Assembly: GCA_947642555.1 (NCBI GenBank)
Contig: CANRSX010000018.1
Coordinates: forward strand, 1 to 64,000
Origin: an uncultured Roseburia sp.
GTDB taxonomy: Bacteria > Bacillota > Clostridia > Lachnospirales > Lachnospiraceae
Length of the DNA stretch: 64,000 bases
Direction of reading: 5' to 3'
Shown here piece after piece: positions 10,819 through 48,481 of this stretch (the stretch's first letter is position 1; every line of letters starts with the position of its first letter). The notes beneath the pieces are model-generated. The model was not told the origin of the DNA, made no database searches, and was given only the letters and a program-made list of their open reading frames with translations. Made by a program: the position numbers and the translations under genes.

Positions 10819-11007
10819 GCTTTCCTGCTCCTTTCTTTTGGAAAACTCCCCTCCTGTATCAGGATGGAAAATTTTCACCTGATACCTTCATTTTATTTGG
10901 ATTTCCCGCAAAAAACCATGCACATATTACAGAATTGCTGTCCGATTTCTCCCGTTTTTCGTCACATATCACAAAGGAAATGATACACTATTTTTGTAAA
11001 AGCTGTC

Positions 11008-30979: not shown

Positions 30980-31039
30980 AATATCCGTTCCTCCAGTAGT
31001 TCTGTCGTTCTCTGCGGACATAAAAAGCAGTCCGAAGGA

Positions 31040-31068
31040 ACTATACCATATTTTACCCGGAAATGCAA
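31040..31068 (-). promoter_or_regulatory. sigma-A promoter of prfC
   Basis: On the minus strand TTGCAT (31068-31063), a 17-bp spacer and TATAGT (31045-31040). It gives a leader of about 54 nt to the TTG start, which separates prfC from the giant-protein operon. Confidence 0.7.
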
Positions 31069-31075
31069 AAGATTC

Positions 31076-31807
31076 TTACTCGTCGTCCTCCCCGGCATCC
31101 GCCTCATCCGCGTCCCCGTCCTCTTCTGTCAGGATTTCCATCAGCTCCGCCGCAATATCCGCAAACCGCTTATGGCGCGGATTGCCGGTGCGCGCATACA
31201 TCTGCTCCGAAACAGAGCGCATCTGTTCCGCCAGCTCGTATTTTTCCTCATCCTCCGTGCCATTGTGAATGAGCACTTTATAGAGCGCAACTACATAATT
31301 ATCGAGATTTGCCACCGTGCCATGCGCCGCGGCCAACCGACTGCCCCAGGCAAGTCCCTTCCGGTAATATTTTAACGCTTCCTCCGAATCAGCGTCCTGT
31401 GCCTTTAACAGATCACCCAGCGACATGCTGCAAACCATAAGAACCTGGCTGGCATATACGGCTTCCGGTTTGTCGACAATCGTCTCCGCTATGTCGACAG
31501 CGCGTTTATAACAGGCGATGCCTTCTTCCCCGTGTGCCTCTCCTCCTGCTGCCGCGCAGAGCCTTCCATGATTCATCAGACACAGGGCATAGTTATCTCC
31601 TGTTTCTGTCGTCGGAGTCTGTTCTATAAAAGCTTTTGCGATCCGGCAGGCTTTTTCGGAATAGGGAAACGCCTCTTCATATGCTTCCCTGTTTCCCTTT
31701 GTCATATAAACCGAAGCAAGATTCATGCAGATCTTCATGCGGTCTGTGCGGTCCTCCACGCTCTCCTCCGGATCGCCTTCCTCATGCGCAAAATACGTAA
31801 GCGCTTT
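31076..31807 (-). pseudogene. severed C-terminal part of DUF4062-NTPase-TPR protein, copy 1
   Basis: The frame of copy 1 continues without break from the amber codon at 31810-31808 to a stop at 31076. The 243 codons read KALTYFAHEEGDPEES, then EDRTDRMKICMNLASVYM and more TPR units, and align along the whole length with the C-terminus of the intact sister (37665-44273). An internal ATG at 31759 could start a 227-residue product, but there is no clear ribosome site. The end is Glu/Asp-rich and differs from the sister's end. It may be a dead tail or made only by read-through. Confidence 0.85.
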
Positions 31808-34800
31808 CTAGTATGCCGCTGCCGCCTGCTCACATGCGTCCTCCCCGCCCAGCGCGCGATGCAGGGAAGCCGTCATCTGCCATGCGATGCACAGCGCATC
31901 CTCCTCCCCTTCCAGGATGCCCTCCTGTACCATATCCTCCGCCCGGGCGATATATGCCTGGTACAGCGCCAGCGCCTTCTCCTTCTCCTCCCGGCTGTCT
32001 CCCTCCGCCAGGAGCTTTCCCAGCTTACGGCAGCCTGTGATATATTCCTGTAACGCTTTTGGCGTGCCCAGTTTCTCCGCCACTTCCCGGTCAAAAGAAA
32101 GCTTCTCTTCCCGCAGCTTTATCTCCTGCCTGCGGCTCTCTTCCCCGGAACGCTTCTGGTATACGGATGCCTGTTTTCCCAGCGTGAAGGATAAGCCTCT
32201 TTTTGCATCCACCGTATCAAGCGCCTCGATGAGCCTCCGCCAGATCTCCTCCTCTTTCCGGTAATAAGACAGCGCCTCATCGTCCGCGGTTTCTCCTTTT
32301 CTGTGTTCCAGATCCCCGAGCCGTTCATAGCACACCGCAATGCCACGCTCATCCTGAATCAGGCCGGATTCCTCCGCAAGCTGCTGCCAGAAGACGAGCG
32401 ACCGACGGATACAGGCCGCGGCATGCTCCGCCGCCCCCTCTTCCTCCATCGACTGGTACGCCATCCCCTGCTTCTGCCAGGCGATGGCGATTCCGCGAAG
32501 ATAATCCAGCCGCTCCAGCCGCTCTTTTAACTGCTCCCAGACATCCTGTTCCAGCCCAAAGAGACGGACTGCCTCCTTAAGATCCTCCTGTGTCCCGGTC
32601 TCCATACAGATATCGCCGTTTTTTTCATACGCGACGGCAACGCTGCGGGCGTCATCTGTCAGCGCAGATTCCTGCGCGATCTCTTTTGCCATCTGAAGGT
32701 ATTGTCCGTACACCTCCCTGGCCCGGGCCAGATTCTTAACGCCGCCAATCCGGCACAGGACATTTCCCAGATTCTCACAGGTGCCGGACAGATACGCCCG
32801 AAGCCTGGATGTCCCGATCCGCTCCTTCTGTGATAGCAGCAATTCCTGCTCCTCCTCGTGCAGCGCCAGCGATCGCCTCAGATCCTGCTCTGTCTCCAGT
32901 TTATAATGAAGACCCCCTAAGTCCCGGCAGCTCATAGCAGCGTTTAATACGTTCTGTACACTGTCATCCTCCTGCATATTCTCTTTTCGCAGCGCATACG
33001 CCTTTTGGTATCCCTCCAGCGCTTTCTGCATATGTCCGCTGTCCCGATACAGCTCATACAGCCTGGCAAGCTGTTCCTGGCACCACGCCAGGTACTCCCG
33101 GCCCCCCACGGTCTCCGGCTCCGCCTCTGGGGCGGTACAAAGCGACAGCGCCTCCAGGAATGCCTGCTCCGCCTGTTTGAAATCCTCCGCCCCCCTGCAG
33201 CTTTTAAGAACCGTTCCTGTCTTCAGCCATGTATACGCCACGGCCCGCAGGTTCTGCGTGGTTCTGTGCTCTGCCAGGTTCCGCCTGTACTGCTCTCTGG
33301 CATCCCGGATACAGGAAAGCGCCTTTCTGTTATTTTCGTCGCCTCCAAGCTTTGCATAAAACGTACCGATCGCCATTTCGCATGCCGGCAATCCATCTTT
33401 TTCTGCCCCGTCGTTCCCCTCCTCTTTCAGACTCTGCCAGATACGTTGTGCCCTCCGGTACAGTTCCTCCGCCTGCCGGATAGAAACGCTGTCGGAATCT
33501 CCCGCATAAAAATCTCCCAGCCGCAGCCACGCTTCCGCCAGATAAACTCTGTCAGAAGCTGTCCCCTGCTGCCGTGCGATCTCCTCCCACAGAGCGGCCG
33601 CCTTTAACAAAAGCCCCTCTGCTTTCTCCTTCTGATCCGTTTTCAGCGTCGCCCGGCAGACAAGTGCAAAATTACTACAGCAGTACGCAAGCCACTTCCG
33701 ATCCGACACCATGCCGTTCTCTTTTACCTGCCGCTCAAAAACCGCACAGGCTTCTTCATACATCCCATATGCCACGGAAAGGTCGCTGCTGCCGCCCAGC
33801 AGATAATATATATCTCCCATATCTGCAAGAAGTTTTCCGCGCAGACACTCTTCGTCAGGACCGGTCTCCCAGCCCTGCACATGCTTCACCTGCTCTGCCT
33901 GTCTGTAAAAATCCAGCGCATGCTCTAAAGAAGCCCTGCTGCCCGATGTGGCGCTGATCTTTCCTGCCTGCATATAGAGCCTCACAAGCGTATTCCAGGC
34001 AGCAGTCGTATTTCTGCTTTCAGCCACTTTTTTCTGCAGACGGATTCCTTCCCGGCACATCATTTCTGCATGTTTTAACCGCTCCTCTCCGCCGGCGTTG
34101 AAATATGCCTTCGCCAGATGAAAGCAGACGTTTGCCAGGCGCTGTCTGCTTTCATCGGTTCCCAGTTCCCTGTCGACCTCTGTGAGAAGCTCCTTCTCTC
34201 GCCGGATATACGGCATATATTCTTCAAAATCCTGGCTCATCTCCATCAGAAGAAATCCGATTGCCTTCATACTTTTCACAAGATCCAGGCGGCTTGCTGC
34301 CGTTTTCTGTTCCGCTGCAAGTTCCTCCCGGATTTCCTTCGCCTTCTGGCACAGCTGCAGCGCTTCCTCATAATCCTTCTGTCTGCCCTGTATCCGCAGC
34401 GCTTCCGCCATACCGTGCCAGGCGTCCGCCAGCAGCTTTTTGCTTTCTGACGTCCGAAGCTCCTCTGCAAGCTCCTCGTGGATTCCGGCTGCCCTTTTGT
34501 ACCAGACAATCGCCTCCGACAGGCTGTCCTGATCGCCACACATCACCAGGGCGTCGGCCAGGTACAGATCACTCCGCGCCACATCGTCCCGGCTGTCCGC
34601 CGTACCCAGCTCCTGCATCAGCTGTTCATAGATCGCCGCAGCCTTTCTAAAATACTCCACCGCCCTTTCGCGCATTTCAGCCCTTGGGCTGGCTGTACAA
34701 AGCCCGCCACGTCTCATAGAAATCTGTGCCACATCCTTCCTGCTCGACACACTTTTCCGGATGCGGTCTGTCTGCACATAAAGTTCCTCTGCACGGGCAA

Positions 34801-37651
34801 AGAGCTCATCCGCCAGACGAAACATCGGAAGGCTTCCGATATTCTCACAGACCACTCCAAAGCCCTTACAGGTATCCGCCAGTCTCCATCCGTCTGACAC
34901 GGTGTCTTCCTTTTCCAGCAGCTCCTCCCGCAGTTTTACTGCACGCTGGTACAGCTCATACGCTTCCGCAAGCGACTCCTTTGTCGCCCGATTCACACCG
35001 GCATCACCGAGATCCTCGCAGGCATCCGAAAGAGACCGGACATTTTCCGGCGAAGGCTCTTCTTTTGCAAGCTCTTCCCGCAGCGCAAGTCTCTGCCGGC
35101 GAAGCGCTTCCATCTGCTCCAGCGCTTTGGCGCTTTCCTCCGATGAATAGGCATACGACAGTTTACCCATGGCATACGCCAGGGATTTTTTCCGTGCCAG
35201 GCTGTTATTTTTTTCATACAGTTCCTTCCGGATGGCAAACGCTTCCTCGTACATTTGTACGTTCCGCCTTCGCAGATCTTTTCCTCCGAGTGTACTGCAG
35301 ACCGCGCCCATCGTGTAATAGCAGGTCGTGAGATCCCGGCGGCTCTGATCCGTCCCGTTTTTCTTTAAAAGCTCCCTGGCCAGTCCGATTGCGGCCTCCG
35401 CGATCCGCTGTTCCGTCAGCAGCTCCTTCTGTGAAATCCCGAAGGCATCATCCAGCCAGAAATTTACAAACAAAAGCAGTTCACGTCCGGGCATACCGGT
35501 CCCCCTGTGCTCCAGAAGAGATGAAAACAGTGCCCCGCCGTCTGCCAGCGAATCGTCATGAATATCTTTCGCCGCCGCGGTCAGGATCTCCTCTCGCACA
35601 GGGATGCTGTCCGACGCTTCATACCGGGTGAGATAGCGCACCAGAAATTCCCGATCCCCCGCCATGCAGGCGTGGTATGTAATCTCCCGGATCCGCACCG
35701 GATCCTCCTCCTTCAGCCCTTCCAAATGGGCAAGGATCTCACCATGCAGTAACCGGATCCTGTCTGCCGCTTCCTCCTGCCCTGCATCCGTCTCCATATC
35801 CTCCCTGCAATCTGCGAGTATCCCCTCCCGGATGCTCCGGTGGGCAAAGTCATAGCGCCCGTCGTCGCGCAGGATGAAAAAACTCCTCATATACCGGATA
35901 AAAAAAGAAAAATCCAGACTGTTATACTCCACCCCGGCACGCATGAGCAGTGACTCGATGTCGCTCTCCCGCAGTCCGTGCCGTGAGACCGCCATGTAGC
36001 GCGCCGCCATCTTTACAAACCCGCCGCCGATCCGGGCGGACGCCGCCTCCAGAAGATCCACACAGACCCCTTCCAGCGTGTCGTCCGCCTCGTCAAGAAG
36101 CGCGAGCTGATGGGCCGAAATCGCCGCCATGCCGTCCCCTCCGGCCGTGATCTGATCAAAATCGTGCCTGTTCATCATCAGAAGCCGCTGGATCAGAAGA
36201 CTTAAGTAGAGCGGACTCGCCGACGCGCGCTTCTGCGCCATTTTCTCAATTACAATCGTCTCAAGTTCCCGCCCCTGAAAGGAAAGAATGCCGCGAATCA
36301 CCTCGCCCCGGTCCGCCTCCTCAAGGGAAGACACCGCCTCCATCTCATCGGCACGGACGCCAGGCAGGGAAAAGGTATCCAGGCAGGAGATCACCATCTG
36401 CACCTTTTCCGAGAGATTCGACGGTATAAAAAACAGCCTGTCCCTCGCATCATCCGGCATCAGCTGATCCAGCGCGTCCAAAAGAATCATCAGGCGTTTC
36501 CCGCCGGAGGACGTATAAGCAGCCACAAGCTCCGCCAGCCGCGTCACAGAGCGCTGCACCGGATCCGCCTGCCCGGACGTTTTGCGGTCTGCCGCATCCT
36601 GTGCGTTTTCCTCCCCGGCCTGCTCTGCGGCATCCTGTGCGTTTTCCTCCCCGGATTCCCCCCTCAGCTCTTTCCCGGCTGCCAGCTGCTCCTGATGGGG
36701 CAGACCCAGCTGTTCCTCCAGCCAGTATATCTGATACCGGATGAGATCCAGCGTATCATTGCTCATCGCGGTATGGCCGCAGAAGACCGGCAGTACAATC
36801 TCCCCGGCCTCCGACAGGCGCACCGCAAGCCTTGCCATCAGCGTGCTCTTGCCGCTGCCCGTCGCTCCTTTTAAGGCGAGCAGACGCTGCCCGCCGTTTA
36901 TCTTCCCGATATAGTCCTCCACCAGTGCTTCCCGCGCGGCAAACTGGTCGGACTTCTGCCGTGCCATATCCCACTGCGCCCGCTGGTCCCGCTCAAACGG
37001 CGAAAGAAGCGCATACTCCTGCCATTCCTGCTCCATCAGTGCCTTCACGTCCTGCGTTACCAGTTCCACAAATGTATCCAGGCCGGTGATGCACTCCGAT
37101 TCCCCGTCCCAGCCGACGGCATAGGTCTTCACCCGGCCGCCGGTGAGCCTTCGGATCCGCTCTTTTAGCTGTAACAGTTTCTCCTCATGCCGGTCATCCT
37201 CCTTCCGGTAAATGGCCGGGAGGTCGTCAGATGTAAATTCCCTGAAATAAAAAAGTGTCCGCGAAAGCTGATCCGGGCGGCTTAACGCCCCGTACTCGAT
37301 CTCTAACGCCGTGACGCTCTTCTCCAGCTCATCCAGTGCAAAGTCGCGCTTCGACTGCACCGCGTCCGCGATCAGCTCCTCCTCCGGAATCCAGCCGTAA
37401 CGCTCCCCGAGAATCACGATCATGTACGGGCGGCAGCGGTCGATCTCGTCGAGACAGACCGCGAGCACTTTTTTCGAGCCCTCCTCATTCTCCAGATCGC
37501 CGGTATTGACCCCCCAGCGCAGATCGCAGAACGACACACTCTCCCCGTAGCGGGCGGTGTATTCGTTCAGCTCCGGCATCACTTTTTCATGGATGATGTC
37601 CCGCTCAAAATGCATATCCTTAAAGGTACTCGATATAAAAATGGTTTTCAT
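31808..37651 (-). CDS. DUF4062-NTPase-TPR giant protein, copy 1 (amber-truncated)
   Basis: A 1,947-residue protein as it stands. Residues 1-170: DUF4062, opening MKTIFISSTFKDMHFERD. Then a linker, a NACHT/STAND-like NTPase with Walker A GATGSGKST near 262-270 and Walker B LMILLDALDQL near 385-395, a winged-helix-like region, and from about 750 onward a long array of TPR units with LGD, YYTMGAVCSTLGG and similar motifs. A TAG at 31810-31808 replaces the Lys codon AAA found at the same place in the sister gene, and the frame stays open for 243 more codons. Other genes here end in TAG, so it is a true stop. It starts 13 bp after the sister's stop with GAGAGGA as its site. Proteins of this plan act as NLR-like sensors. 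Confidence 0.88.
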   Translation of the reverse strand: MKTIFISSTFKDMHFERDIIHEKVMPELNEYTARYGESVSFCDLRWGVNTGDLENEEGSKKVLAVCLDEIDRCRPYMIVILGERYGWIPEEELIADAVQSKRDFALDELEKSVTALEIEYGALSRPDQLSRTLFYFREFTSDDLPAIYRKEDDRHEEKLLQLKERIRRLTGGRVKTYAVGWDGESECITGLDTFVELVTQDVKALMEQEWQEYALLSPFERDQRAQWDMARQKSDQFAAREALVEDYIGKINGGQRLLALKGATGSGKSTLMARLAVRLSEAGEIVLPVFCGHTAMSNDTLDLIRYQIYWLEEQLGLPHQEQLAAGKELRGESGEENAQDAAEQAGEENAQDAADRKTSGQADPVQRSVTRLAELVAAYTSSGGKRLMILLDALDQLMPDDARDRLFFIPSNLSEKVQMVISCLDTFSLPGVRADEMEAVSSLEEADRGEVIRGILSFQGRELETIVIEKMAQKRASASPLYLSLLIQRLLMMNRHDFDQITAGGDGMAAISAHQLALLDEADDTLEGVCVDLLEAASARIGGGFVKMAARYMAVSRHGLRESDIESLLMRAGVEYNSLDFSFFIRYMRSFFILRDDGRYDFAHRSIREGILADCREDMETDAGQEEAADRIRLLHGEILAHLEGLKEEDPVRIREITYHACMAGDREFLVRYLTRYEASDSIPVREEILTAAAKDIHDDSLADGGALFSSLLEHRGTGMPGRELLLFVNFWLDDAFGISQKELLTEQRIAEAAIGLARELLKKNGTDQSRRDLTTCYYTMGAVCSTLGGKDLRRRNVQMYEEAFAIRKELYEKNNSLARKKSLAYAMGKLSYAYSSEESAKALEQMEALRRQRLALREELAKEEPSPENVRSLSDACEDLGDAGVNRATKESLAEAYELYQRAVKLREELLEKEDTVSDGWRLADTCKGFGVVCENIGSLPMFRLADELFARAEELYVQTDRIRKSVSSRKDVAQISMRRGGLCTASPRAEMRERAVEYFRKAAAIYEQLMQELGTADSRDDVARSDLYLADALVMCGDQDSLSEAIVWYKRAAGIHEELAEELRTSESKKLLADAWHGMAEALRIQGRQKDYEEALQLCQKAKEIREELAAEQKTAASRLDLVKSMKAIGFLLMEMSQDFEEYMPYIRREKELLTEVDRELGTDESRQRLANVCFHLAKAYFNAGGEERLKHAEMMCREGIRLQKKVAESRNTTAAWNTLVRLYMQAGKISATSGSRASLEHALDFYRQAEQVKHVQGWETGPDEECLRGKLLADMGDIYYLLGGSSDLSVAYGMYEEACAVFERQVKENGMVSDRKWLAYCCSNFALVCRATLKTDQKEKAEGLLLKAAALWEEIARQQGTASDRVYLAEAWLRLGDFYAGDSDSVSIRQAEELYRRAQRIWQSLKEEGNDGAEKDGLPACEMAIGTFYAKLGGDENNRKALSCIRDAREQYRRNLAEHRTTQNLRAVAYTWLKTGTVLKSCRGAEDFKQAEQAFLEALSLCTAPEAEPETVGGREYLAWCQEQLARLYELYRDSGHMQKALEGYQKAYALRKENMQEDDSVQNVLNAAMSCRDLGGLHYKLETEQDLRRSLALHEEEQELLLSQKERIGTSRLRAYLSGTCENLGNVLCRIGGVKNLARAREVYGQYLQMAKEIAQESALTDDARSVAVAYEKNGDICMETGTQEDLKEAVRLFGLEQDVWEQLKERLERLDYLRGIAIAWQKQGMAYQSMEEEGAAEHAAACIRRSLVFWQQLAEESGLIQDERGIAVCYERLGDLEHRKGETADDEALSYYRKEEEIWRRLIEALDTVDAKRGLSFTLGKQASVYQKRSGEESRRQEIKLREEKLSFDREVAEKLGTPKALQEYITGCRKLGKLLAEGDSREEKEKALALYQAYIARAEDMVQEGILEGEEDALCIAWQMTASLHRALGGEDACEQAAAAY

Positions 37652-37664
37652 ATACTCTGTCCTC

Positions 37665-40600
37665 TCATATCACCGGGATCTCTCCCTTTACGATTTCGAG
37701 CAGCTCTTCCGACATCTCCACAAAATTTTTGTGCCGCGGGTTCCCCGTGCGCTCATACAGCTGGCCCGATATCGCGCACATCTGCTCCGCCAGCTCGCGC
37801 TTTTCCTCCACCGGCGTGGCTCTGTGGGCAATCACACGATACAGCGCCACGATATAATTGTCGATATTCGCCACGGTACTGTGCGAAGCGGCAAACCGGC
37901 TGCCCCAGGCCAGCCCCTTCCGGTAGTATGCGAGCGCTTCCTCCGAATCCGCGTCCTGCGCTTTTAACAGGTCTCCCAGGAGCATACTGCAGGAGGTCAG
38001 AATCTGGCCGCTGTACTGCGCCCCATCTTCCCCGGCCAGCTCCTCCGACAGGGCAACGGCCTCCTTTAAAAGGGCGATCCCTTCCTCGCGGTGCGCCTCA
38101 TCCCCCAAGGAGCTGCACAGCCTCCCGTGATTCATCAGACAGAGGGCATAGTGGTCTCTATTTTCTACAGATGACGTATTTTCTGCAAAATCCTTTGCGA
38201 TCCGGCAGGCCGTTTCGGAGTATGGAAACGCTTTTTCATATGCTTCCTGATCGCCCTGTGCCATATAAGACGACGCGAGATTCATGCAGATCTTCATGCG
38301 GTCTGTGCGATCTTCCCCGCTCTCCGCCGGATCTCCATCCTCATGAGACAGGTATGTGAGGGCTTTCTTATATGCTGCTGCCGCCTGCTCACACGCATCC
38401 TCCCCACCCAGGGCGCGGTGCAGGGAAGCTGTCATCTGCCAGGCGACGCACAGCGCATCCTCCTCCCCTTCCAGGACGCCCTCCTGCACCATATCCTCCG
38501 CCTGGGCAATATACGCCTGATACAGCGCTAAGGCCTGCTCTTTTTCCTCCCGGCTGTCGCCGTCCGCCAGAAGCCTGCCCAGCTTACGGCAGCTTAACAT
38601 ATATTCCTTCAGCGCCTTTACTGTGCCCAGCTCCTCCGCCACTTCCCGGTCAAGCGAAAGCTTCTCTGCCCGCAGCTCCATCTCCTTCCTGCGGCTCTCC
38701 TCACCAAAACGCGTCTGGCAGACTGCCGCCTGTTTTCCCAGGGTAAAGGACAGTCCCCTTCTCGCATCCGCCGTGCCCAGGGCCTTAATCAGCCTCCTCC
38801 AGATCTCCTCCTCTTTCCCGTAATATTCCAGTGCCTCGTCCTCTGCCGCGCCGCCTGTTCTGTGTGCCAGATCCCCAAGCCGCTCATAGCAGATTGCAAT
38901 GTCACGCTCGTTCTGAATCAGGCCGGATTCCTCCGCGAGCTGCTGCCAGAAGGAGAGCGCCTGCCGGATACAGGCCGCGGACTGCTCCGCCGCCCCTTCC
39001 TCAGACAGCTCCTTATATGCCGTCCCCTGCTTCTGCCAGGCGATGGCGATTCCGCGAAGATAATCCAGCCGCTCCAGCCGCTCTTTTAACTGCTCCCAGA
39101 TATCCCGTTCCAGCCCGTACAGCCGGACCGCCTCCTTTATATCCTCCTGCGTCCCGGCCTCCATACAGATATCGCCGTTTCTTTCATAGGCGACGGCAAC
39201 GCTGCGCTCATCCTCCGTCAGCGCCGATTCCTCCGCGATCTCTTCTGACATCTGAAGGTATTGTACGTACGCCTCCCTGGCCCGGGCCAGGTTCTTAACG
39301 CCGCCCATCCGACGCAGGACATCACCCAGATTCGCATAGGTTATGGACAGGTACGTCCTTAGTCTGGATGTTCCGACTCTCTCCTCTGACGAAAGCAGAA
39401 GCGCAAGCTCCTCCTCGTACAGCGCCAGCGACTGCTTCAGATCCTGCGCTGTCTCGAGCTTATAGTAAAGCCCCCCTAAGCTCCGGCAGCTCATGGCGGC
39501 GTTTAACACGCTCTGTACGTTGTCCTCCTCCCGCAGGCTTTCTTTCCGCAGCTCATATGCGTTTCCGTATCCCTCCAGTGCCATCCGCATATGCGCGCTG
39601 TCCCCGTATGCCTCGTACAGTCCGGCAAGACATTCCTCACACCGCGCCAGATACGCCCGTCCCGCTGCGGTGTCCGGCTCCGCCTCCGCCATACCGCAGA
39701 GGGTCCGCGCCTTAAGGAAGGCCTGCTCTGCCTGTTTTAAATCCTCCGCCCCCCTGCAGGCCAGAAGAATCTCCCCCGTCCGGATCCAGGTATCCGCCAC
39801 CGCCCGCAGATTGCTCGTGGATCTGTGTTCCGCCAGGCTGGTCTCATACTGCTCCCTGGTCCTCTGCATACAGGAGAGAGCCTTCCTGTTATATTCTTCT
39901 CCCCCAAGCTTTGCATAGAACCTGCCGAGGGCCAGGTCACATGCCGGCAGACCGTTTTTTTCCGCCCTGGCATATCCCTCCTCCTTCAGGCTCTGCCAGA
40001 TGCGCCGGGCCCTCTCATACATTTCCTCCGCCTGCCGGATGGAAGCGCCGTCCGATTCTTTTACATAAAAATCTCCCAGCAGGAACCAGGCCTGCGCCAG
40101 ATTGTCCCTGCTGAAAACCGTTCCCTGCTGCCGTACCGTCTCTTCCCGCAGGGCAGCCACCTTTAACAGCAGTTCCTTTGCCTTCTCCCTCTGATCCGCC
40201 TCCTGCGTCATCTGACAGATGAGGGCCAGATTGCAGTAGCAGTGTACCAGCCATCCCTGATCCCCCGCCATGCCGGTCTCTTCCGCCACCCGCTCAAAGA
40301 CTTCACAGGCTTTTTCATACCTCTCATATGCCATGGAAAGGCCGTCTCTGCCGCCCAGCAGGAAATAGATATTTCCCGTATCCGCAAGAAATCTGCCGCG
40401 CAGGGTCTCCTCGTCAAAACCGGCTTCCCAGCCCTGCTCCTGTTTCACCTGCTCCGCCTGTCTGTAAAAATCCAGCGCGCGCTCTAAGGAGGCCCTGCTG
40501 CCCGATGTTGCGCTGATCTCTCCCGCCTGCATGTACAGCATCACAAGAACATTCCAGGTGGCACGCGTATTCCTGTTTTCCGCCACATTTCTCTGCAGAC

Positions 40601-43600
40601 GGATCCCTTCCCGACACATCTCTTCCGCGCGCTTTATCCGCTCTCCTCCTCCGGCGCGGGAATATGCCTGCGCCAGCTGAAATGAAACATCCGCCAGGCG
40701 CTGCCTGCTGTCGTCCGTCCCCCGCTCCCGGTCGACCTCTGTGAGAAGTTCCTGCTCACGCCAAAAATACGGGATGTATGTTTCAAAATCCTGTCCCATC
40801 TCCATCAGCAGAAATCCCATGGTCTTCATGCTTTCCGCGAGATCCAGCCGGCTTGCTGCCGTTTTCTGTTCATCTACAAGTGTCTCGCGAAGCTCCTGCG
40901 CCTTCCGGTACAGATGCAGGGCTTCCTCATAGTCCTTCTGCCCGCCCAGCATCCGCCGCGCATCCGCCATTCCGTGCCAGGCGTCCGCCAGCAGCTCCCT
41001 GCTCTCCGGCGTCTGAAGCTCCTCTGCAAGCGCCTCCCGGATGCCGACCGCCTTTTCATACCACACGAGGGCTTCCGACAGACTGTTCTGATCGCCGCAC
41101 ATCGCCAGAGCGCCGGCCAGGTCCAGATCACTCTGCGCCACATCGTCCCGGCTGTCCGCCGTCCCCAGCTCATGCATCAGCTGTTCATAGATCGCCGCAG
41201 CTTTTCGATAATACTCCACCGCCCGTTCGAATGACCCTCCGCTCTGCCTGACGGCACAAAGGCTGCCCCGTCTCATCAAAATCTGCGCCACATCCTTCCG
41301 GCTCGACACGCTTTTTTTGATATGATCCGTCTGTACATACAGCTCCTGTGCGCGGGCGAACAGCTCCTCCGCCTTCTGCAGCATCGGAAGACTTCCGATT
41401 CTCTCGCAAATCATTCCAAAGCCCTTACAGGCATCCGCCAGCCTCCAGCGGTCTGCCACGGTGTCTTCCTGTTCCAGCATCTCCTCCCGCAGCTTTAGCG
41501 CGCGCTCATACAGCTCATATGCTTCCTTAAGCGACTCCTTTGTCCCCTGATCCCGGCAGGCGTCGCCCAGATCCTCGCAGGCATTCAGAAAACGTCTGAT
41601 ATTTTTCGGGGAGGGATCTTCCTTCGCGATCTCTTCCCGCAGCGCAAAAGCCCGCCGGCGAAGCGCATTCATCCGCTCCAGCGCCCCGGCGCTTCCCTCC
41701 GTCATACAGGCATCGGACAATTTTCCCAAGGCATGCGCCAGGGATGTTTTCCGGGCCATGCTGCCTTCCTTTTTATACAGCTCCTCCCGGATGGCCAGCG
41801 CTTCCTCGTACATCTGTATGGTCCGCTTCTGCCGTTCATTTCCCCCGAGCGTATTGCAGACCGCGCCCATGGTGTAATAACAGACTGTGAGATCCCTGCG
41901 GCTCTGATCCGTCCCGTTTCTCTTTAAAAGCTCTCTGGCCAGCCCGATCGCGGCCTCCGCGATCCGCTGTTCCGTCAGAAGCTCCTTTTGGGAAATGCCA
42001 AAGGAATCATCCAGCTCGAAGTTTACGAATACGAGTAATTCCCGTCCGGGCAGATCCGACCCCCTGTGATTCAGGAGGGACTCAAAAAACACCCCGCCGT
42101 CCGTAAGCGAGAAATCCCGCACATCCTTTGCCGCCGCCGCGAGGATCTCATCCGCCAGGGGTTCCCCGGCTTTCGGCTCATACCGGCTTATGTATCGCGT
42201 CAGAAATTCCCGGTCCCCCGCCGCACAGGCATGATATGTCATCTCCCGGATCCGCACCGGGTCCTCCTCCTTTAAGCCTTCCAAATGGGCAAGGATCTCG
42301 CCGTGCAGCGCTTTTATTCTGTCTGCGGGGACACCCCCGGCGATTCTGCTCACGGCGCCATCCCGCTCCCCGGCAGTCCTCACATCCTCCCTGCAGTCCG
42401 CGAGGATCCCCTCCCGGATACTCCGGTGGGCAAAATCGTAGCGTCCGTCGTCGCGCAGGAGAAAGAAGCTTCTCATATACCGGATAAAAAGAGAAAAATC
42501 AAGGCTGTTATACGCTACCCCGGCACGCGTGAGCAGAGACTCAATATCGCTCTCCCTGAGCCCGTGTCGGGAGACCGCCATATAGCGCGCCGCCGTCTTT
42601 ACAAATCCGCCGCCGATCCGGGCGGACGCCGCCTCCAGAAGATCCACACAGACCCCTTCCAGCGAGTCGTCCGCCTCGTCAAGAAGCGCGAGCTGATGGG
42701 CCGAAATGGCCGCCATGCCGTCCCCGCTGGCCGTGATCTGATCAAAATCATGCTTGTTCATCATCAGCAGCCGCTGGATCAGAAGGCTTAAATAAAGCGG
42801 ACTTCCCGAGGCGCGCTTCTGCGCCATTCTGTCAATTACAATCGTCTCCAGCTCCCGCCCCTGAAAGGAAAGAATGCCGCGAATCACCTCGCCGCGGTCC
42901 GCCTCCTCAAGGGATGACACCGTCTCCGTCTCATCGGCACGAATGCCGGGCAGAGGAAAGGTATCCAGGCAGGAGATCACCATCTGCACCCGGTCCGAAA
43001 GATTCGGCGGAACAAAAAACAGCCTGTCCCTTGCGTCATCCGGCATCAGCTGATCCAGCGCGTCCAGAAGAATGATCAGGCGCGGTCCGCCGGACGACGT
43101 ATAAGCGGCCACAAGCTCCGCCAGCCGCGCGGTAAAGAGCTGCACCGGATCCGTCTGCCCGGACGTTTTGCGGTCTGCGGCGTCCTGTGCGTTTCCCGGC
43201 ACGTCCCCTCCTGCGGTCTCCTGCGTCCCAAAATCCGTCTGGTCCGCTCCGGCAGCAGAGGCGTTTTCCTCCCCGGATTCCCCCCTCATCTCCTTCCCGG
43301 CTTCCAGCGGCTCCTGATGCGGCAGGCCCAGCCGCTCCTCCAGCCAGTATACCTGATACCGGATGAGGTCCAGGGCGTCATTGCTCATGGCGGTATGGCC
43401 GCAGAACACCGGCAGCACGATCTCCCCGGCTTCCGACAGACACACCGCAAGCCTTGCCATCAGCGTGCTCTTGCCGCTTCCGGCCGCTCCTTTTAAAGCC
43501 AGAAGGCGCTGCCCGCCTTTTAATTTTTCCATATATCGATCGACGAGTGTCTCGCGCGCTGCAAACTGGCCGGACTTCTGCCGTGCCATATCCCACTGCG

Positions 43601-44273
43601 CCCGCTGGTCCCGCTCAAACGGCGTGAGAAGCGCATACTCCTGCCAGTCCTGCTCCATCAGGCCTTTCACATCCTGCGTCACCAGCTCCACAAATGTCTC
43701 CAGCCCGGTGATGCATTCCGCTTCCCCGTCCCAGCCGACGGCATAGGTCTTCACCCGGCCGCCGGTGAGTGTCCGGATCCGCTCTTTTAACTGTAACAGC
43801 TTCTCCTCATGCCGGTCGTCCTCCTTCCGGTAGACCGGCGGGAGATCGTCAGATGTAAATTCTCTGAAATAAAAAAGCGTCCGCGCCAGCTGATCCGGGC
43901 GGCTTAACGCCCCGTACTCAATCTCTAACGCCGTGACACTTTTCTCCAGCTCATCCAGCGCAAAGTCGCGCTTCGACTGCACCGCGTCCGCGATCAGCTC
44001 CTCCTCCGGGATCCAGCCGTAGCGCTCCCCGAGGATCACGATCATGTACGGACGGCAGCGGTCGATCTCGTCGAGACAGACCGAAAGAACCTTTTTCGAC
44101 CCCTCCTCATTCTCCAGATCACCGGTGTTGACGCCCCATCGCAGATCGCAGAACGACACGCTCTCCCCGTAGCGCGCCGCGTATTCGTTCAGCTCCGGCA
44201 TCACCTTTTCGTGGATGATGTCGCGCTCAAAATGCATGTCCTTAAAGGTACTCGATATAAAAATGGTTTTCAT
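37665..44273 (-). CDS. DUF4062-NTPase-TPR giant protein, copy 2 (intact)
   Basis: A 2,202-residue protein with the same plan as copy 1: DUF4062 at 1-170, linker, P-loop NTPase with GAAGSGKST at 262-270 and LIILLDALDQL at 399-409, about 300 residues of helical and winged-helix-like sequence with DDGRYDFAHRSIREGI, then about 1,400 residues of TPR. The DUF4062 part is nearly identical to copy 1, the linker at 325-380 differs and the TPR array differs much more. DUF4062 also caps animal NLR-like proteins such as nephrocystin-3 and TEP1-related NTPases. STAND proteins with TPR ends act in bacteria as ligand-triggered immune sensors; that role is inferred. GGAGGGG precedes the ATG. It is in one run with the AEC transporter, KGGVGR ATPase and HEPN-like genes. 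Confidence 0.88.
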   Translation of the reverse strand: MKTIFISSTFKDMHFERDIIHEKVMPELNEYAARYGESVSFCDLRWGVNTGDLENEEGSKKVLSVCLDEIDRCRPYMIVILGERYGWIPEEELIADAVQSKRDFALDELEKSVTALEIEYGALSRPDQLARTLFYFREFTSDDLPPVYRKEDDRHEEKLLQLKERIRTLTGGRVKTYAVGWDGEAECITGLETFVELVTQDVKGLMEQDWQEYALLTPFERDQRAQWDMARQKSGQFAARETLVDRYMEKLKGGQRLLALKGAAGSGKSTLMARLAVCLSEAGEIVLPVFCGHTAMSNDALDLIRYQVYWLEERLGLPHQEPLEAGKEMRGESGEENASAAGADQTDFGTQETAGGDVPGNAQDAADRKTSGQTDPVQLFTARLAELVAAYTSSGGPRLIILLDALDQLMPDDARDRLFFVPPNLSDRVQMVISCLDTFPLPGIRADETETVSSLEEADRGEVIRGILSFQGRELETIVIDRMAQKRASGSPLYLSLLIQRLLMMNKHDFDQITASGDGMAAISAHQLALLDEADDSLEGVCVDLLEAASARIGGGFVKTAARYMAVSRHGLRESDIESLLTRAGVAYNSLDFSLFIRYMRSFFLLRDDGRYDFAHRSIREGILADCREDVRTAGERDGAVSRIAGGVPADRIKALHGEILAHLEGLKEEDPVRIREMTYHACAAGDREFLTRYISRYEPKAGEPLADEILAAAAKDVRDFSLTDGGVFFESLLNHRGSDLPGRELLVFVNFELDDSFGISQKELLTEQRIAEAAIGLARELLKRNGTDQSRRDLTVCYYTMGAVCNTLGGNERQKRTIQMYEEALAIREELYKKEGSMARKTSLAHALGKLSDACMTEGSAGALERMNALRRRAFALREEIAKEDPSPKNIRRFLNACEDLGDACRDQGTKESLKEAYELYERALKLREEMLEQEDTVADRWRLADACKGFGMICERIGSLPMLQKAEELFARAQELYVQTDHIKKSVSSRKDVAQILMRRGSLCAVRQSGGSFERAVEYYRKAAAIYEQLMHELGTADSRDDVAQSDLDLAGALAMCGDQNSLSEALVWYEKAVGIREALAEELQTPESRELLADAWHGMADARRMLGGQKDYEEALHLYRKAQELRETLVDEQKTAASRLDLAESMKTMGFLLMEMGQDFETYIPYFWREQELLTEVDRERGTDDSRQRLADVSFQLAQAYSRAGGGERIKRAEEMCREGIRLQRNVAENRNTRATWNVLVMLYMQAGEISATSGSRASLERALDFYRQAEQVKQEQGWEAGFDEETLRGRFLADTGNIYFLLGGRDGLSMAYERYEKACEVFERVAEETGMAGDQGWLVHCYCNLALICQMTQEADQREKAKELLLKVAALREETVRQQGTVFSRDNLAQAWFLLGDFYVKESDGASIRQAEEMYERARRIWQSLKEEGYARAEKNGLPACDLALGRFYAKLGGEEYNRKALSCMQRTREQYETSLAEHRSTSNLRAVADTWIRTGEILLACRGAEDLKQAEQAFLKARTLCGMAEAEPDTAAGRAYLARCEECLAGLYEAYGDSAHMRMALEGYGNAYELRKESLREEDNVQSVLNAAMSCRSLGGLYYKLETAQDLKQSLALYEEELALLLSSEERVGTSRLRTYLSITYANLGDVLRRMGGVKNLARAREAYVQYLQMSEEIAEESALTEDERSVAVAYERNGDICMEAGTQEDIKEAVRLYGLERDIWEQLKERLERLDYLRGIAIAWQKQGTAYKELSEEGAAEQSAACIRQALSFWQQLAEESGLIQNERDIAICYERLGDLAHRTGGAAEDEALEYYGKEEEIWRRLIKALGTADARRGLSFTLGKQAAVCQTRFGEESRRKEMELRAEKLSLDREVAEELGTVKALKEYMLSCRKLGRLLADGDSREEKEQALALYQAYIAQAEDMVQEGVLEGEEDALCVAWQMTASLHRALGGEDACEQAAAAYKKALTYLSHEDGDPAESGEDRTDRMKICMNLASSYMAQGDQEAYEKAFPYSETACRIAKDFAENTSSVENRDHYALCLMNHGRLCSSLGDEAHREEGIALLKEAVALSEELAGEDGAQYSGQILTSCSMLLGDLLKAQDADSEEALAYYRKGLAWGSRFAASHSTVANIDNYIVALYRVIAHRATPVEEKRELAEQMCAISGQLYERTGNPRHKNFVEMSEELLEIVKGEIPVI

Positions 44274-44310
44274 CCCGGACTCCCCTCCATGTGAATTCGC
44301 GCCACGAATC

Positions 44311-45342
44311 TTAAATCCCGGTCAGCATGGACACCACAGGCATCGTCGCCACCGAGAGCAGCGTCGTGAGCGCCACGCCCTTGGACGCCAGCTTAAAATT
44401 TCCGTCATACTGCTGCGCCATCATGGCTGTCATGCTCCCCGCCGGCGTGGAAAGCACCACCATGCACAGGATCAGTATCGCCTCGTTCGACACAAACTGC
44501 CGGATCAGCAGGAGCCCCGCGACCGGAACCACCAGAAGCTTGATCACGGAAAACAAAATCAGTCTTACATCTGTAAATAATTCTTTTACATGGAAGCCCG
44601 TAAACGACTGGCCGATCACGATCATGCTAAGCGGCAGCGTCAGCCCGCTTAAGTTCTCAAGGAGCGTCATGACAAAGCCCGGCATCTTCACCCCGCCAAA
44701 GAAGAACATCAGCGAGATAATACAGGCGATCAGTCCGGCGTTGAACATCTGCCGCCACCATGGCCTGTGCCCGCCCACGTCGCTTCCAGCTCCGGCCGCT
44801 TTTGCTTTCGCGCCGGCTCCCGCCTCCCTGGCTTTCGCACCGGCTCCCAGGTCGTCGACTCCCTCCTCCCCCGCTTTCGTGCCGGCATCGACGGCATCCT
44901 TCTGAATCATCACAATCCCGTAGGTGTAGATCAGCACGCAGAACACCAGCTGGAAAAAGGTGTAATACAGCACCGCCTCCGATCCGCTTAAGGCCGAGAG
45001 CAACGGAATCCCCATAAAACCGATATTGGAAAACACAAACATAACGCGGTAGATCCCGCGGTCCCCCTGCTTTGCCCGAAGGAGAAAGGGAAGCGCCGCC
45101 GCGATCAGAAGGAGCGCCGCGTACACCGCGACCGCAAGCCCTCCGACCAGGATAAAATTCTGCCGCGAGATCCCGGACGCGTCGCTTACGCCCGCCTTTA
45201 AGATCAGGGCCACATTCGCTATGTTTACGACAAGCCAGGAAATGGCCTTCGTCTCCCTCTCGTGCAGCACGCCCTTTCTGCCGCCGAAATAACCGATCAG
45301 CATCATGCCTGAAATGGCCAGCATTTGTTGTAGTAAAATCAT
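44311..45342 (-). CDS. AEC family transporter (auxin efflux carrier-like)
   Basis: A 343-residue membrane protein with about ten hydrophobic segments in two halves, typical of the AEC/BART group that exports organic anions such as malate or unknown metabolites. The start MLAISGMMLIGYFGGRKG and the VLSTPAGSMTAMMAQQYDG end are characteristic. The central cytoplasmic loop (about 155-195) is expanded with imperfect Ala-Gly-Ala-Lys repeats. It sits 14 bp after the KGGVGR ATPase gene and 37 bp before the giant copy 2, so it is inside the presumed operon. It may be a passenger or supply transport; its role there is unknown. Confidence 0.9.
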   Translation of the reverse strand: MILLQQMLAISGMMLIGYFGGRKGVLHERETKAISWLVVNIANVALILKAGVSDASGISRQNFILVGGLAVAVYAALLLIAAALPFLLRAKQGDRGIYRVMFVFSNIGFMGIPLLSALSGSEAVLYYTFFQLVFCVLIYTYGIVMIQKDAVDAGTKAGEEGVDDLGAGAKAREAGAGAKAKAAGAGSDVGGHRPWWRQMFNAGLIACIISLMFFFGGVKMPGFVMTLLENLSGLTLPLSMIVIGQSFTGFHVKELFTDVRLILFSVIKLLVVPVAGLLLIRQFVSNEAILILCMVVLSTPAGSMTAMMAQQYDGNFKLASKGVALTTLLSVATMPVVSMLTGI

Positions 45343-45356
45343 GCTGTAAATCCTTT

Positions 45357-47981
45357 CTATTTTGCGAGAAGCGATAAAACCTTCGGGCGGGCGCCCTTTT
45401 CATAAGTAAATCCGAGCGCAAACCGGATGATCTCCGGCAGATAGTATTTCTTATCCGACGTGATCAGAAATCCCTGGCTCTCAAGTCTTGCGATCTCCTC
45501 ATTGGTCATGCTGATTTTATCCAACGTCAGCGGAAGCTTCTTATCCCCTGCCTCCATATCCTCAAATCGTTTCAGCACGGAATAAAGCGTTTTCATCTCA
45601 ACCTGTATTTCTTTATATTTATCCGCGGAACACTCAGGAATCGCCTTTCTGATCTCAGAGGGCATAAGATACCGGTCCGGATACGGGGGCATGCTCTCCG
45701 GATAATTTCTAGAGGCGCATTTTAAAAACCGGACGATATCCCGCGCCTGCAGCTGACCGGTAAAATCGGACAACGCCGCAATAATCCAGCGCGCCGAAAT
45801 CGCTTCCCTGGAATCGCTTTTTCCCAGCTTTTTCCCCCACAACAGCTCCAGACGTTCCTCGAGCGCATCCCTGCTTGCTTTTAAAATATCGATACCATTG
45901 CCAAATACCGGATCCGCCTGCGCGGCAACCCAAAGCGCCAGCCGCAGCGCCTCTGTCGGCGTCCATTTCAGTTCATATCGAAAATACTGGCTCTTAAACT
46001 GTTCAAAGTTAACCCCGATTGCCTCTTCTGCCATATCTTTTCGGACAAAGACAATCATTCCGATATTTCCAAATTTCAGATTTCTCAGATCGTTGATCAG
46101 ATTCTGACACAGCGCACGGATGGCATATTTCCAGCTCTCTTCCTCTCTGACCTGTGAATCCATAAACAGATCTTCCAGCCCGTCCACAAGAAAGATCAGC
46201 CTCTTTTTTTTCGTTTCCAGATATGCATCCACATCCGCCAGTTTTGAAAAATCATCTCCCAGCATCTGCATGATCAGATTTTCCCATACTGCCGCCCAGT
46301 CTGTCAGAGAAAGCGTCTGTTCAGAACATTTCTGAATTTTGTTGTAATTGATCCCCACTGCATCCGTATCAATCCGCTCTTCCCCAAGCGCCTGATTCGC
46401 ATACCAGATACATTCCCGGATCGGTCTGTGAAGATATTTTAAATTTACGGATGAGATCAGTGGAACCACAAGCGTCTCATTCTCGGAACGGACAGCTTTC
46501 TGATCCGCCGTAACCTGAAACTCCTCCCATGTTTTTTTCACAAGCATCTGCTTATAGATATATGTTTTTCCGGACCCCTTTGCACCCAGCACCACAATCT
46601 GCGGGATACCGTCCCGGTAGTCTTTTGCAATTTCCCGTATGGATGCCGTAGAAAGCATATTGGAAGAATCATTTCCCTCCGCCGTGATTTCTCTCTCTGC
46701 AATCCGGTTCAGGTTGTTCAGCGTGATCTTTGCATCCTCCCATGAAATCCCGCTTTCTTCCTGCACAGATTTTTTCTGAAACAGATCCGGGGCCAGCTCC
46801 AACATCGTATTGCTTAATTCTTTTCCTTTCAGCATCCCGCAGATCTCATGAAAATTTCCCAAAGAGATAAACGTCTGATCAAACCCTATACGGATCAGAT
46901 AGCTCTCCCGCAGGCCGGCTGTCTCCGACTCAATCTCTTTTTCGAGCGGCAACGCCAGCCGATCCTCAATCCGGATCAGCGTTCCCGTCTCCATCTCCGG
47001 CGGTATCACGGTAAGAAGCACCTTTGAATTGCGAAGGCCATATTCCTCCCTTTCATGAATTTCATTTAAAATCTGCACTGTTCCCTCCACCGACTGCATG
47101 GATGTCGAGGAGACAAAAAACTTCTGTACGCGGGAGTCAAACAGAAACGGCGCGGAAAATTCTGTAACACCGGCTCTTAAATCCACCAGAATCAGATCCG
47201 CGTGCAGCGCCGCTCCGATTCTGGAGATAAATTCCGTGATGATATATTTATTGTTCTGTGACTGAATCACTTTCTCCGGACTTGAGAAAATACGGAACAC
47301 CTGATCCTTCCTCCGGTATACCGGCAGAAAGTAATGTTCCACCTGCAGGCGCTCCGTTTCAACCACAATATTGGACGTTTTTATCACTGCCGCGATCTTT
47401 TCCGCAAGCCCTTCGTCAGCAGAGTGAACATGCATCAGCGATAAAAGATCCAGATAGCTGACCGATCCTTTTTCCTCTCCATCCCCAAGCATCCAGGTAA
47501 GCCCCGGCGCTTCCAGATCCGCATCGATGATCAGTAATTTTTTATACTCCCCATACCGTTCCGATATCTCCCTGGCCAGAGAAATCAGCGACAACGTTCT
47601 GCCAACGCCTCCCTTATAGGAATGAAACGCGACAATCGGAGTTCCCGGCAGCTCATCCTTTTTCTCAGACCTGTCGTCTCTCATGTATATATCCTGAAAC
47701 AGGGGCATTCTGCCCGGAGAAAACCGCTCTCCTTCGTCCCCGTCCGCATATGCAACGGAAAGACTGCTCCCGTCAAAATCGATTCGGATTTCTCCGTCAT
47801 CATAATTCTTCCCAAAAATAGCTTTTAATGTCTCCTCATCTTCCTCCCACTGACGGTTCCCCACATCAGACTCAATCACAATCTCATCCTGATACACTTC
47901 CACCCGCTTCCAGCTTTTCGGCCACTGGTTACTGTGCCTCATGAGTTCTGTCTCCACATCAAACCATGTAAATAAACGCAT
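45357..47981 (-). CDS. double-P-loop KGGVGR-type ATPase
   Basis: An 874-residue protein with two nucleotide-binding modules. After about 110 N-terminal residues, FHSYKGGVGRT at 119-129 is a deviant Walker A of the ParA/MinD (SIMIBI) class with Arg in the KGGxGR position; DADLEAPG at 153-160 and LVDLRAG near 265 are the switch motifs. A second, ordinary P-loop GAKGSGKT is at 466-473 with Walker B RLIFLVDGLED at 594-604, like a STAND/AAA ATPase. The end (about 790-874) looks like a winged helix. No membrane segment. AGGAGGG precedes the ATG. It lies 10 bp after a HEPN-like gene and upstream of the giants. KGGVGR ATPases are often found in conflict loci; the activity here is inferred. Confidence 0.8.
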   Translation of the reverse strand: MRLFTWFDVETELMRHSNQWPKSWKRVEVYQDEIVIESDVGNRQWEEDEETLKAIFGKNYDDGEIRIDFDGSSLSVAYADGDEGERFSPGRMPLFQDIYMRDDRSEKKDELPGTPIVAFHSYKGGVGRTLSLISLAREISERYGEYKKLLIIDADLEAPGLTWMLGDGEEKGSVSYLDLLSLMHVHSADEGLAEKIAAVIKTSNIVVETERLQVEHYFLPVYRRKDQVFRIFSSPEKVIQSQNNKYIITEFISRIGAALHADLILVDLRAGVTEFSAPFLFDSRVQKFFVSSTSMQSVEGTVQILNEIHEREEYGLRNSKVLLTVIPPEMETGTLIRIEDRLALPLEKEIESETAGLRESYLIRIGFDQTFISLGNFHEICGMLKGKELSNTMLELAPDLFQKKSVQEESGISWEDAKITLNNLNRIAEREITAEGNDSSNMLSTASIREIAKDYRDGIPQIVVLGAKGSGKTYIYKQMLVKKTWEEFQVTADQKAVRSENETLVVPLISSVNLKYLHRPIRECIWYANQALGEERIDTDAVGINYNKIQKCSEQTLSLTDWAAVWENLIMQMLGDDFSKLADVDAYLETKKKRLIFLVDGLEDLFMDSQVREEESWKYAIRALCQNLINDLRNLKFGNIGMIVFVRKDMAEEAIGVNFEQFKSQYFRYELKWTPTEALRLALWVAAQADPVFGNGIDILKASRDALEERLELLWGKKLGKSDSREAISARWIIAALSDFTGQLQARDIVRFLKCASRNYPESMPPYPDRYLMPSEIRKAIPECSADKYKEIQVEMKTLYSVLKRFEDMEAGDKKLPLTLDKISMTNEEIARLESQGFLITSDKKYYLPEIIRFALGFTYEKGARPKVLSLLAK

Positions 47982-47991
47982 TGCTTCCCTC

Positions 47992-48438
47992 CTACACCAT
48001 CGTTTTCAGCCACTCCGCAACCTTTACCAGCGTTTTTTCCGCCTTTTCCTCTTCCCCTGGATCCGCTGTCTCTATCCCGTAGCGCCACAACTCATTAAAC
48101 CGGGACGGAGGTACTGATCCACCGCCATGTTTCAGCTGAATATCCCGAAGTATGAAATCATTCCGCGGGTTCACTTCTTTTATCATATCCTTTACATTAT
48201 GCCCCATCCATCTGCCCTGACCGGATGCACAGTACTCTTCATATGAATTCTTTCCGCTGTTTTTCAGAATCAGATATTTTAATCCGCATTCTACTGAATA
48301 AAACAGAATCAGCCGCCTTGTCTTTTCACTTCCGTCGGATTGATTGTAAAGACGATAATGCATCCGAAAGCTGTTTTTAAACTCCTTCTGCGTTACATTC
48401 AGTTTTTTGTCCGCCATTTTCTCTCCCGTCTCTCCCAC
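47992..48438 (-). CDS. small HEPN-like helical protein
   Basis: A 148-residue protein, first gene of the block. It starts at a GTG (48438) with AGGGAGA upstream; an ATG at 48417 is the alternative. The RRLILFYSVECGLKYLILK stretch followed by GHNVKDMIKEV matches the layout of small HEPN proteins, in which a helix pair is followed by a GH-D-L segment. No clear RX4-6H RNase motif is seen (only GRWMGH), so it may be a non-catalytic adaptor. It ends in TAG, 10 bp before the ATPase gene, so the two are surely co-transcribed. The family call is tentative. Confidence 0.6.
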   Translation of the reverse strand: MGETGEKMADKKLNVTQKEFKNSFRMHYRLYNQSDGSEKTRRLILFYSVECGLKYLILKNSGKNSYEEYCASGQGRWMGHNVKDMIKEVNPRNDFILRDIQLKHGGGSVPPSRFNELWRYGIETADPGEEEKAEKTLVKVAEWLKTMV

Positions 48439-48452
48439 CAGATTCTCCCTGC

Positions 48453-48481
48453 ATTATAACCGATTTACGTCCGCAATACAA
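48453..48481 (-). promoter_or_regulatory. promoter of the HEPN-ATPase-giant operon
   Basis: On the minus strand TTGTAT (48481-48476), a 17-bp spacer and a perfect TATAAT (48458-48453). The leader to the GTG at 48438 would be short, about 8-10 nt. It directly follows the terminator of the GH36 gene. Confidence 0.65.

Follow-up and report, generated by a model that had tools for sequence, protein, structure and literature searches.

The DUF4062 domain is described in a 2026 preprint (PMC13174449) as a TIR-like enzyme that splits NAD+ (NADase). The preprint also reports that Swarozyc, a bacterial DUF4062 system, acts by abortive infection, with KpSwz being triggered by a phage portal protein, that among the human DUF4062-NACHT proteins TEP1, NPHP3, NWD1 and NWD2 only TEP1 is active as an NADase, and that the five bacterial DUF4062 proteins tested carry another C-terminal domain (PMC13174449). 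Here, we analysed a 64,000-nucleotide stretch from an uncultured Roseburia sp. (contig CANRSX010000018.1, positions 1 to 64,000; the window in what follows), in which an earlier sequence-only reading had seen a single conflict operon of five genes at 31076-48438. We consider it fairly probable that the locus instead combines two independent accessory cassettes beside a resident gene for an AEC-family membrane transporter: a module of a HEPN-like protein with a KGGVGR double ATPase (cassette A), and two giant DUF4062 proteins that would serve as NADase sensors of abortive infection (cassette B). The computations support the domain content, a conserved and probably catalytic glutamate, the pairing of the HEPN-like and ATPase genes, the separateness of the two cassettes and the position of the giants between the AEC gene and prfC, the gene for peptide chain release factor 3; we infer sensing, oligomerisation, NADase activity and an antiphage role.

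How do the giants compare with the described DUF4062 proteins? Giant 1 (37665..44273, minus strand; 2202 residues) and giant 2 (31808..37651, minus strand; 1947 residues up to an in-frame TAG) both carry DUF4062 (PF13271, 48.5 and 49.4 bits at a cut-off of 24.7; E 9.9e-13 in giant 1), a STAND-like nucleoside triphosphatase (NTPase) and, in a long arm, helical repeats of 50 residues. Over residues 4-207, giant 1 is similar to the solved DUF4062 chain of TEP1 (11gz, E 2e-21), and E117, within SVTALEIEYG, aligns with E115 of that chain. E117 is thus the probable catalytic glutamate of the giants, equal to E1008 of TEP1 under the assumed offset of a chain starting at residue 894. It is present at this position in both giants and kept in 104 of the 104 sequences that have a residue there, among the best 120 of 777 relatives (our two included, 16 gapped). 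The NTPase motifs of giant 1 are intact (Walker A, GAAGSGKS, at 262; Walker B, IILLDALD, at 400); AAA_16 scores 39.2 bits in giant 2 and 31.9 in giant 1 (cut-off 32.6), and NPHP3_N 28.6 and 23.3 bits, respectively (cut-off 24.8). The arm of giant 1 shows a sharp 50-residue period, with lags of 50, 100 and 150 giving the top autocorrelation, and its length corresponds to about 31 repeat units. With DUF4062 and NTPase in both proteins, Walker motifs and 50-residue repeats, the effector/NTPase/repeat layout of STAND sensors that the sequence-only reading had proposed is borne out, and the effector is of a defence-linked kind, DUF4062 being described as an antiphage NADase in the preprint (PMC13174449).

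Swarozyc resembles the giants in having a DUF4062 with the conserved glutamate and in being encoded by accessory, patchy genes, but appears to differ in its C-terminal auxiliary domain, which has a helix-turn-helix/winged-helix core and binds the portal in KpSwz (PMC13174449), whereas Pfam finds in the giants a STAND-like NTPase and around 1500 residues of repeats after DUF4062. TEP1, NPHP3 and NWD1 share with the giants a DUF4062 that adjoins a NACHT ATPase; unlike them, the giants are bacterial and have no WD40 repeats by Pfam. NPHP3 also has TPRs. The layout of effector, NTPase and repeats is also that of Avs and other bacterial NLR-like STAND systems, and the giants have in common with Avs both this layout and the mechanism proposed below. 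Membership in Avs was nevertheless rejected, because no Avs model of PADLOC, whose library presumably contains them, matched the giants at E 0.1.

Giants 1 and 2 are tandem paralogues with 77% identity, which is distributed unevenly: DUF4062 is 95% identical with a ratio of nonsynonymous to synonymous substitution rates (dN/dS) of 0.06, the NTPase region 86% (dN/dS 0.20) and the repeats 73% (dN/dS 0.28), the ratio staying below 0.6 in each 100-residue window. The count of five genes with two giants stood as regards five coding regions but not as regards giant 2 as one open gene: the frame opens at 37651, is interrupted by the TAG at 31810-31808 and stays open beyond it, in unchanged register, as far as 31076, with a remnant (31076..31759, minus strand) that forms an open reading frame (ORF) of 227 residues from a GTG. 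An intact relative of 2191 residues in a database cluster (P0199) is identical to the first piece at 1933 of 1947 residues and to the second at 222 of 226, and since this near-identical protein exists, the break is either recent, at the level of strains, or an assembly error.

Three further giant-type DUF4062 genes with the same glutamate lie elsewhere in this genome, on contigs C5, C56 and C12, the C12 copy being cut by the contig end (L014:5681-11071, L015:3517-8133, L016:2-2746 and L017:26-2101 in the stretches fetched); a standard Walker A string is missing from the C5 copy. Contigs C11 and C12 each terminate in giant-type sequence and may hold the halves of one gene. Across the family, matches to the giants, many of them weak, occur in 17 of 299 genomes including this one (16 of 298 others), and distant DUF4062 proteins are found on two plasmid records. 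Relatives of the giants neighbour glutamate synthase genes in one case and a Mur-ligase or HD-domain gene in others.

We propose that the giants follow a cycle like that of TIR-NLR proteins, in which the repeat arm would bind an invader protein, binding of this trigger would cause the STAND-like NTPase to oligomerise, and the clustered DUF4062 domains would split NAD+, leading to growth arrest or cell death. If so, the animal DUF4062-NACHT family would have its bacterial counterparts in the giants. Giant 1 and its paralogues in the same genome offer a bacterial version of that animal layout which is open to testing, and they bear on the question whether the layout began as an NADase immune receptor.

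Upstream of the AEC gene lies a conserved two-gene cassette, as judged from its relatives, consisting of the HEPN-like gene (47992..48417, minus strand) and the ATPase gene (45357..47981, minus strand). An HEPN relative was found on the same strand at most 400 bp upstream in 77 of 80 loci with ATPase relatives (the best 80 of 85); every locus is counted, and the misses are a contig edge (L029), a HEPN gene about 415 bp upstream (L078) and a broken ATPase gene for which none was found (L093). Under looser counting, the pair was recovered in 69 and 70 of the 80 loci with single-sequence searches and in 73 with clustering. In the 60 loci where both genes encode nearly full-length proteins, the pairwise identities of HEPN and ATPase proteins are strongly correlated (Mantel r=0.953; 0 of 2000 permutations as high). 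The ATPase has 1173 relatives among 7992 scored and is patchy, since it occurs at full length in only one of 59 other relatives examined. By record title, loci outside Lachnospiraceae belong to strains of Domibacillus, Tumebacillus and Actinospica and to metagenome bins of Synechococcus, Treponema and Bacteroidales, the Treponema and Bacteroidales bins being short contigs that are possibly misbinned. The cassette often seems to be decaying, because ATPase relatives are broken into several ORFs in six loci (L076, L086, L089, L091, L092, L093). Some records hold two or three copies (DKVC01: L044, L061, L093).

No third gene is widely common to the cassette when up to five ORFs to either side of the ATPase are compared over the 80 loci: the largest neighbour clusters other than HEPN reach 11, 9 and 8 loci in mixed positions, and one cluster forms the second upstream gene in five. 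The commonest Pfam families among the neighbours occur at most three times in 128 (first 25 of 168 families). At E 1e-10, PADLOC matched 16 families, including ShosA, AbiLii, PsyrA, AriA and type I restriction, among 128 genes neighbouring ATPase relatives, compared with 6 in 128 control genes; the neighbours were randomly drawn from 280 eligible genes (the nearest two of at least 150 residues on each side), and the controls, likewise drawn at random, came from the loci of prfC and AEC within a single genus and so are not matched for genus. Close carriage of the ATPase by a plasmid or phage was not found, with six plasmid records and one phage record matching and none covering more than 80% of the query, and a scan of viral contigs gave no relative.

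The ATPase protein joins a KGGVGR domain (NF047398, 148 bits, cut-off 90) to a region, residues 586-831, that resembles Sll1717-type ATPases (NF047389, 80 bits, cut-off 75). Its ParA/MinD-like domain spans residues 114-308 or so, with KGGVGRT unchanged in all 16 aligned sequences, and a second P-loop, GAKGSGKT, lies at 466, so that the union of a KGGVGRT site with a second P-loop, noted earlier from the sequence, is confirmed. The structure model (mean predicted local distance difference test 74.7, predicted template modelling score 0.48) has ParA-type Foldseek matches, and little was drawn from it beyond the ParA-like half. BrxC and plant NLR chains among the matches were discarded, as they superpose very poorly.

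For the first protein, model comparison agrees with the earlier HEPN-like call, and a HEPN fold is likely. The ORF opens at GTG 48438, and translation probably starts at ATG 48417, where the HEPN relatives begin. The RNase motif RX4-6H shows no conservation: strings of this form occur in 33 of 77 relatives at scattered positions, and the residues invariant among 18 aligned proteins (H27, R41, H80, R119) do not form it, for which reason a canonical HEPN RNase was rejected. Five distant relatives gave no Pfam match, and querying PDB sequences with the alignment of HEPN proteins returned a single weak match, unrelated.

Is the pair a variant of a described system? PDC-M28, a PADLOC candidate, comes near to the ATPase, with PDC-M28B matching residues 108-282 and PDC-M28C residues 462-677, both partially; among four distant ATPase relatives, three match B and C and one (L095) B only. 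The cassette would seem to differ from PDC-M28 in that the B and C parts are joined in a single ATPase protein with a HEPN partner alongside, and no PDC-M28 model matched the HEPN proteins tested. From HEPN-MNT toxin-antitoxin pairs and AbiV the cassette differs in a HEPN protein without conserved RX4-6H, and from HEPN-MNT also in its partner, a double ATPase instead of a nucleotidyltransferase. No named system for the pair was found in PADLOC or in the literature, where name searches can miss papers. Kept together over several phyla and without a named system found, the pair is a clean two-gene candidate for study. We propose that the ATPase would act as a sensor or switch and the HEPN protein as its partner, which might bind RNA or, despite lacking the usual RX4-6H site, be a toxin-like effector.

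Do the cassettes belong together? Around the 80 ATPase loci (flanks reaching 10 kb where the contig allowed), relatives of the giants occurred in none and an AEC relative in one (L041). Conversely, no HEPN, ATPase or AEC relatives were found at 12 giant loci of ten other genomes, taken from 16 with matches of which the remaining six had weaker or partial ones, nor in the stretches fetched around three further giant loci of this genome. The codons of the cassettes also differ: the GC content at third positions is 0.50 in the HEPN-like gene and 0.55 in the ATPase gene, as compared with 0.58-0.77 in 20 other coding pieces measured in the window.

The AEC gene (44311..45342, minus strand), whose family assignment holds (PF03547, E 2.9e-34), is probably a resident of the prfC neighbourhood. 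In 60 genomes of the same genus, its closest matches are in G367 and G374 (57-60% identity over the matched halves), followed by G026 and G019 (48-57%). In G367, 128 bp separate the end of the AEC relative from prfC downstream of it, and in G374 a single gene intervenes; in G026 and G019 the two are on separate contigs. prfC itself was detected in 55 of the 60 genomes at E 1e-100, our own included. Directly after giant 2, the prfC promoter region of G367 is kept (31022..31075, minus strand; 29 of 39 bases, a score that 0 of 500 shuffles reached) and marks the downstream border of the giants, which thus sit between the AEC gene and the conserved promoter of prfC. The simplest history would be that AEC and prfC were ancestral neighbours, that the giants were inserted between them and that the HEPN-ATPase pair was placed upstream of AEC, a direction of change that we infer from few genomes. 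An apparent extra AEC gene beside prfC in L232 was rejected, as it encodes an EamA transporter. Residues 150-190 or so of the AEC protein are rich in alanine, glycine and lysine, and the matches of several relatives stop there.

We further propose, tentatively and with less confidence than the division itself, that both cassettes are undescribed antiphage systems: a cross-phylum pair of a non-canonical HEPN protein and a KGGVGR double ATPase, and bacterial DUF4062-STAND receptors of the NPHP3/TEP1 type that, with their approximately 31 repeat units, would multiply by tandem duplication and sensor divergence. Several observations weigh against our interpretation. TPR models and HTH_NWD1 match the giants below Pfam cut-offs. 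The synonymous divergence (dS) between the giants is 0.36-0.37 in the DUF4062 and NTPase regions versus 0.58 in the repeats, so that gene conversion at the N terminus, beside selection, may be a part-cause of the identity gradient. The PADLOC excess beside cassette A is weak, with control genes from one genus only, and no direct phage link to the cassettes was seen. AEC adjoins prfC in just two (G367, G374) of the 31 prfC loci retrieved for this genus, and the adjacency is not general, since a broken AEC relative in the single-contig genome G373 (pieces of 59 and 44% identity) is some 1.6 Mb away from prfC. Gaps so compact, and lacking minus-strand terminators, would fit a co-transcription of all five genes. 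Finally, NPHP3, which has the closest layout to the giants, is reported to lack NADase activity (PMC13174449).

The inactivity of NPHP3 and the weak defence enrichment favour the explanation that survives best after ours, namely that the giants serve as scaffolds for signalling in a cell process, their DUF4062 being inactive as in NPHP3, and that the HEPN-ATPase genes are a selfish pair, toxin-antitoxin-like or partition-like. One ATPase domain is indeed ParA-like, and the glutamate synthase, Mur-ligase or HD-domain genes beside relatives of the giants would suit a cellular role. We nevertheless regard this explanation as unlikely, because the probable catalytic glutamate is kept without exception, the occurrence of the ATPase and of the giants is patchy, the repeats have diverged while the effector is fixed, and a defence role of DUF4062 is described for other members (PMC13174449).

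More improbable still is a single five-part defence operon, in which HEPN and ATPase would process a signal or pass it on, with the giants as sensors and killers and AEC acting at the membrane: strand, gaps of 10-37 bp and missing terminators speak for it, but the neighbourhood survey that the sequence-only reading had named as its own check never placed giants near ATPase or HEPN genes (0 of 80 and 0 of 12 loci, AEC in 1 of 80), prfC is close to AEC in G367 and G374, and the base composition of the HEPN-ATPase pair is unlike that of AEC and the giants, so that we rejected the five-gene system. Nor are all five conserved core genes, an outcome that had also been named as adverse, given that the HEPN-ATPase pair and the giants are rare in relatives.

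The five minus-strand coding regions at 31076-48438 with gaps of 10, 14, 37 and 13 bp, as described before, are confirmed, and ORFs of 874-2202 residues with hundreds of relatives are not products of chance. The minus-strand gene downstream (29390..31021), which we take to be prfC, is resident and outside both systems. A scan gave no minus-strand terminator-like sites in the four intergenic gaps. The promoter claimed at 48453-48481 is present as sequence (TTGTAT-17-TATAAT at 48481-48453, upstream of the HEPN-like gene), with only 3 of 6 matches in the first hexamer, and the scan lists instead TTTACA-18-TATAGT at 48568-48539, likewise upstream of that gene. That it is the sole promoter is not established, because the scan holds 14 promoter-like sites versus 8.4 (standard deviation 3.1) in shuffles, several of them inside genes. 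Elsewhere in the window, a minus-strand protein of 2229 residues with a glycosyl hydrolase 59 domain is encoded at 4189-10878.

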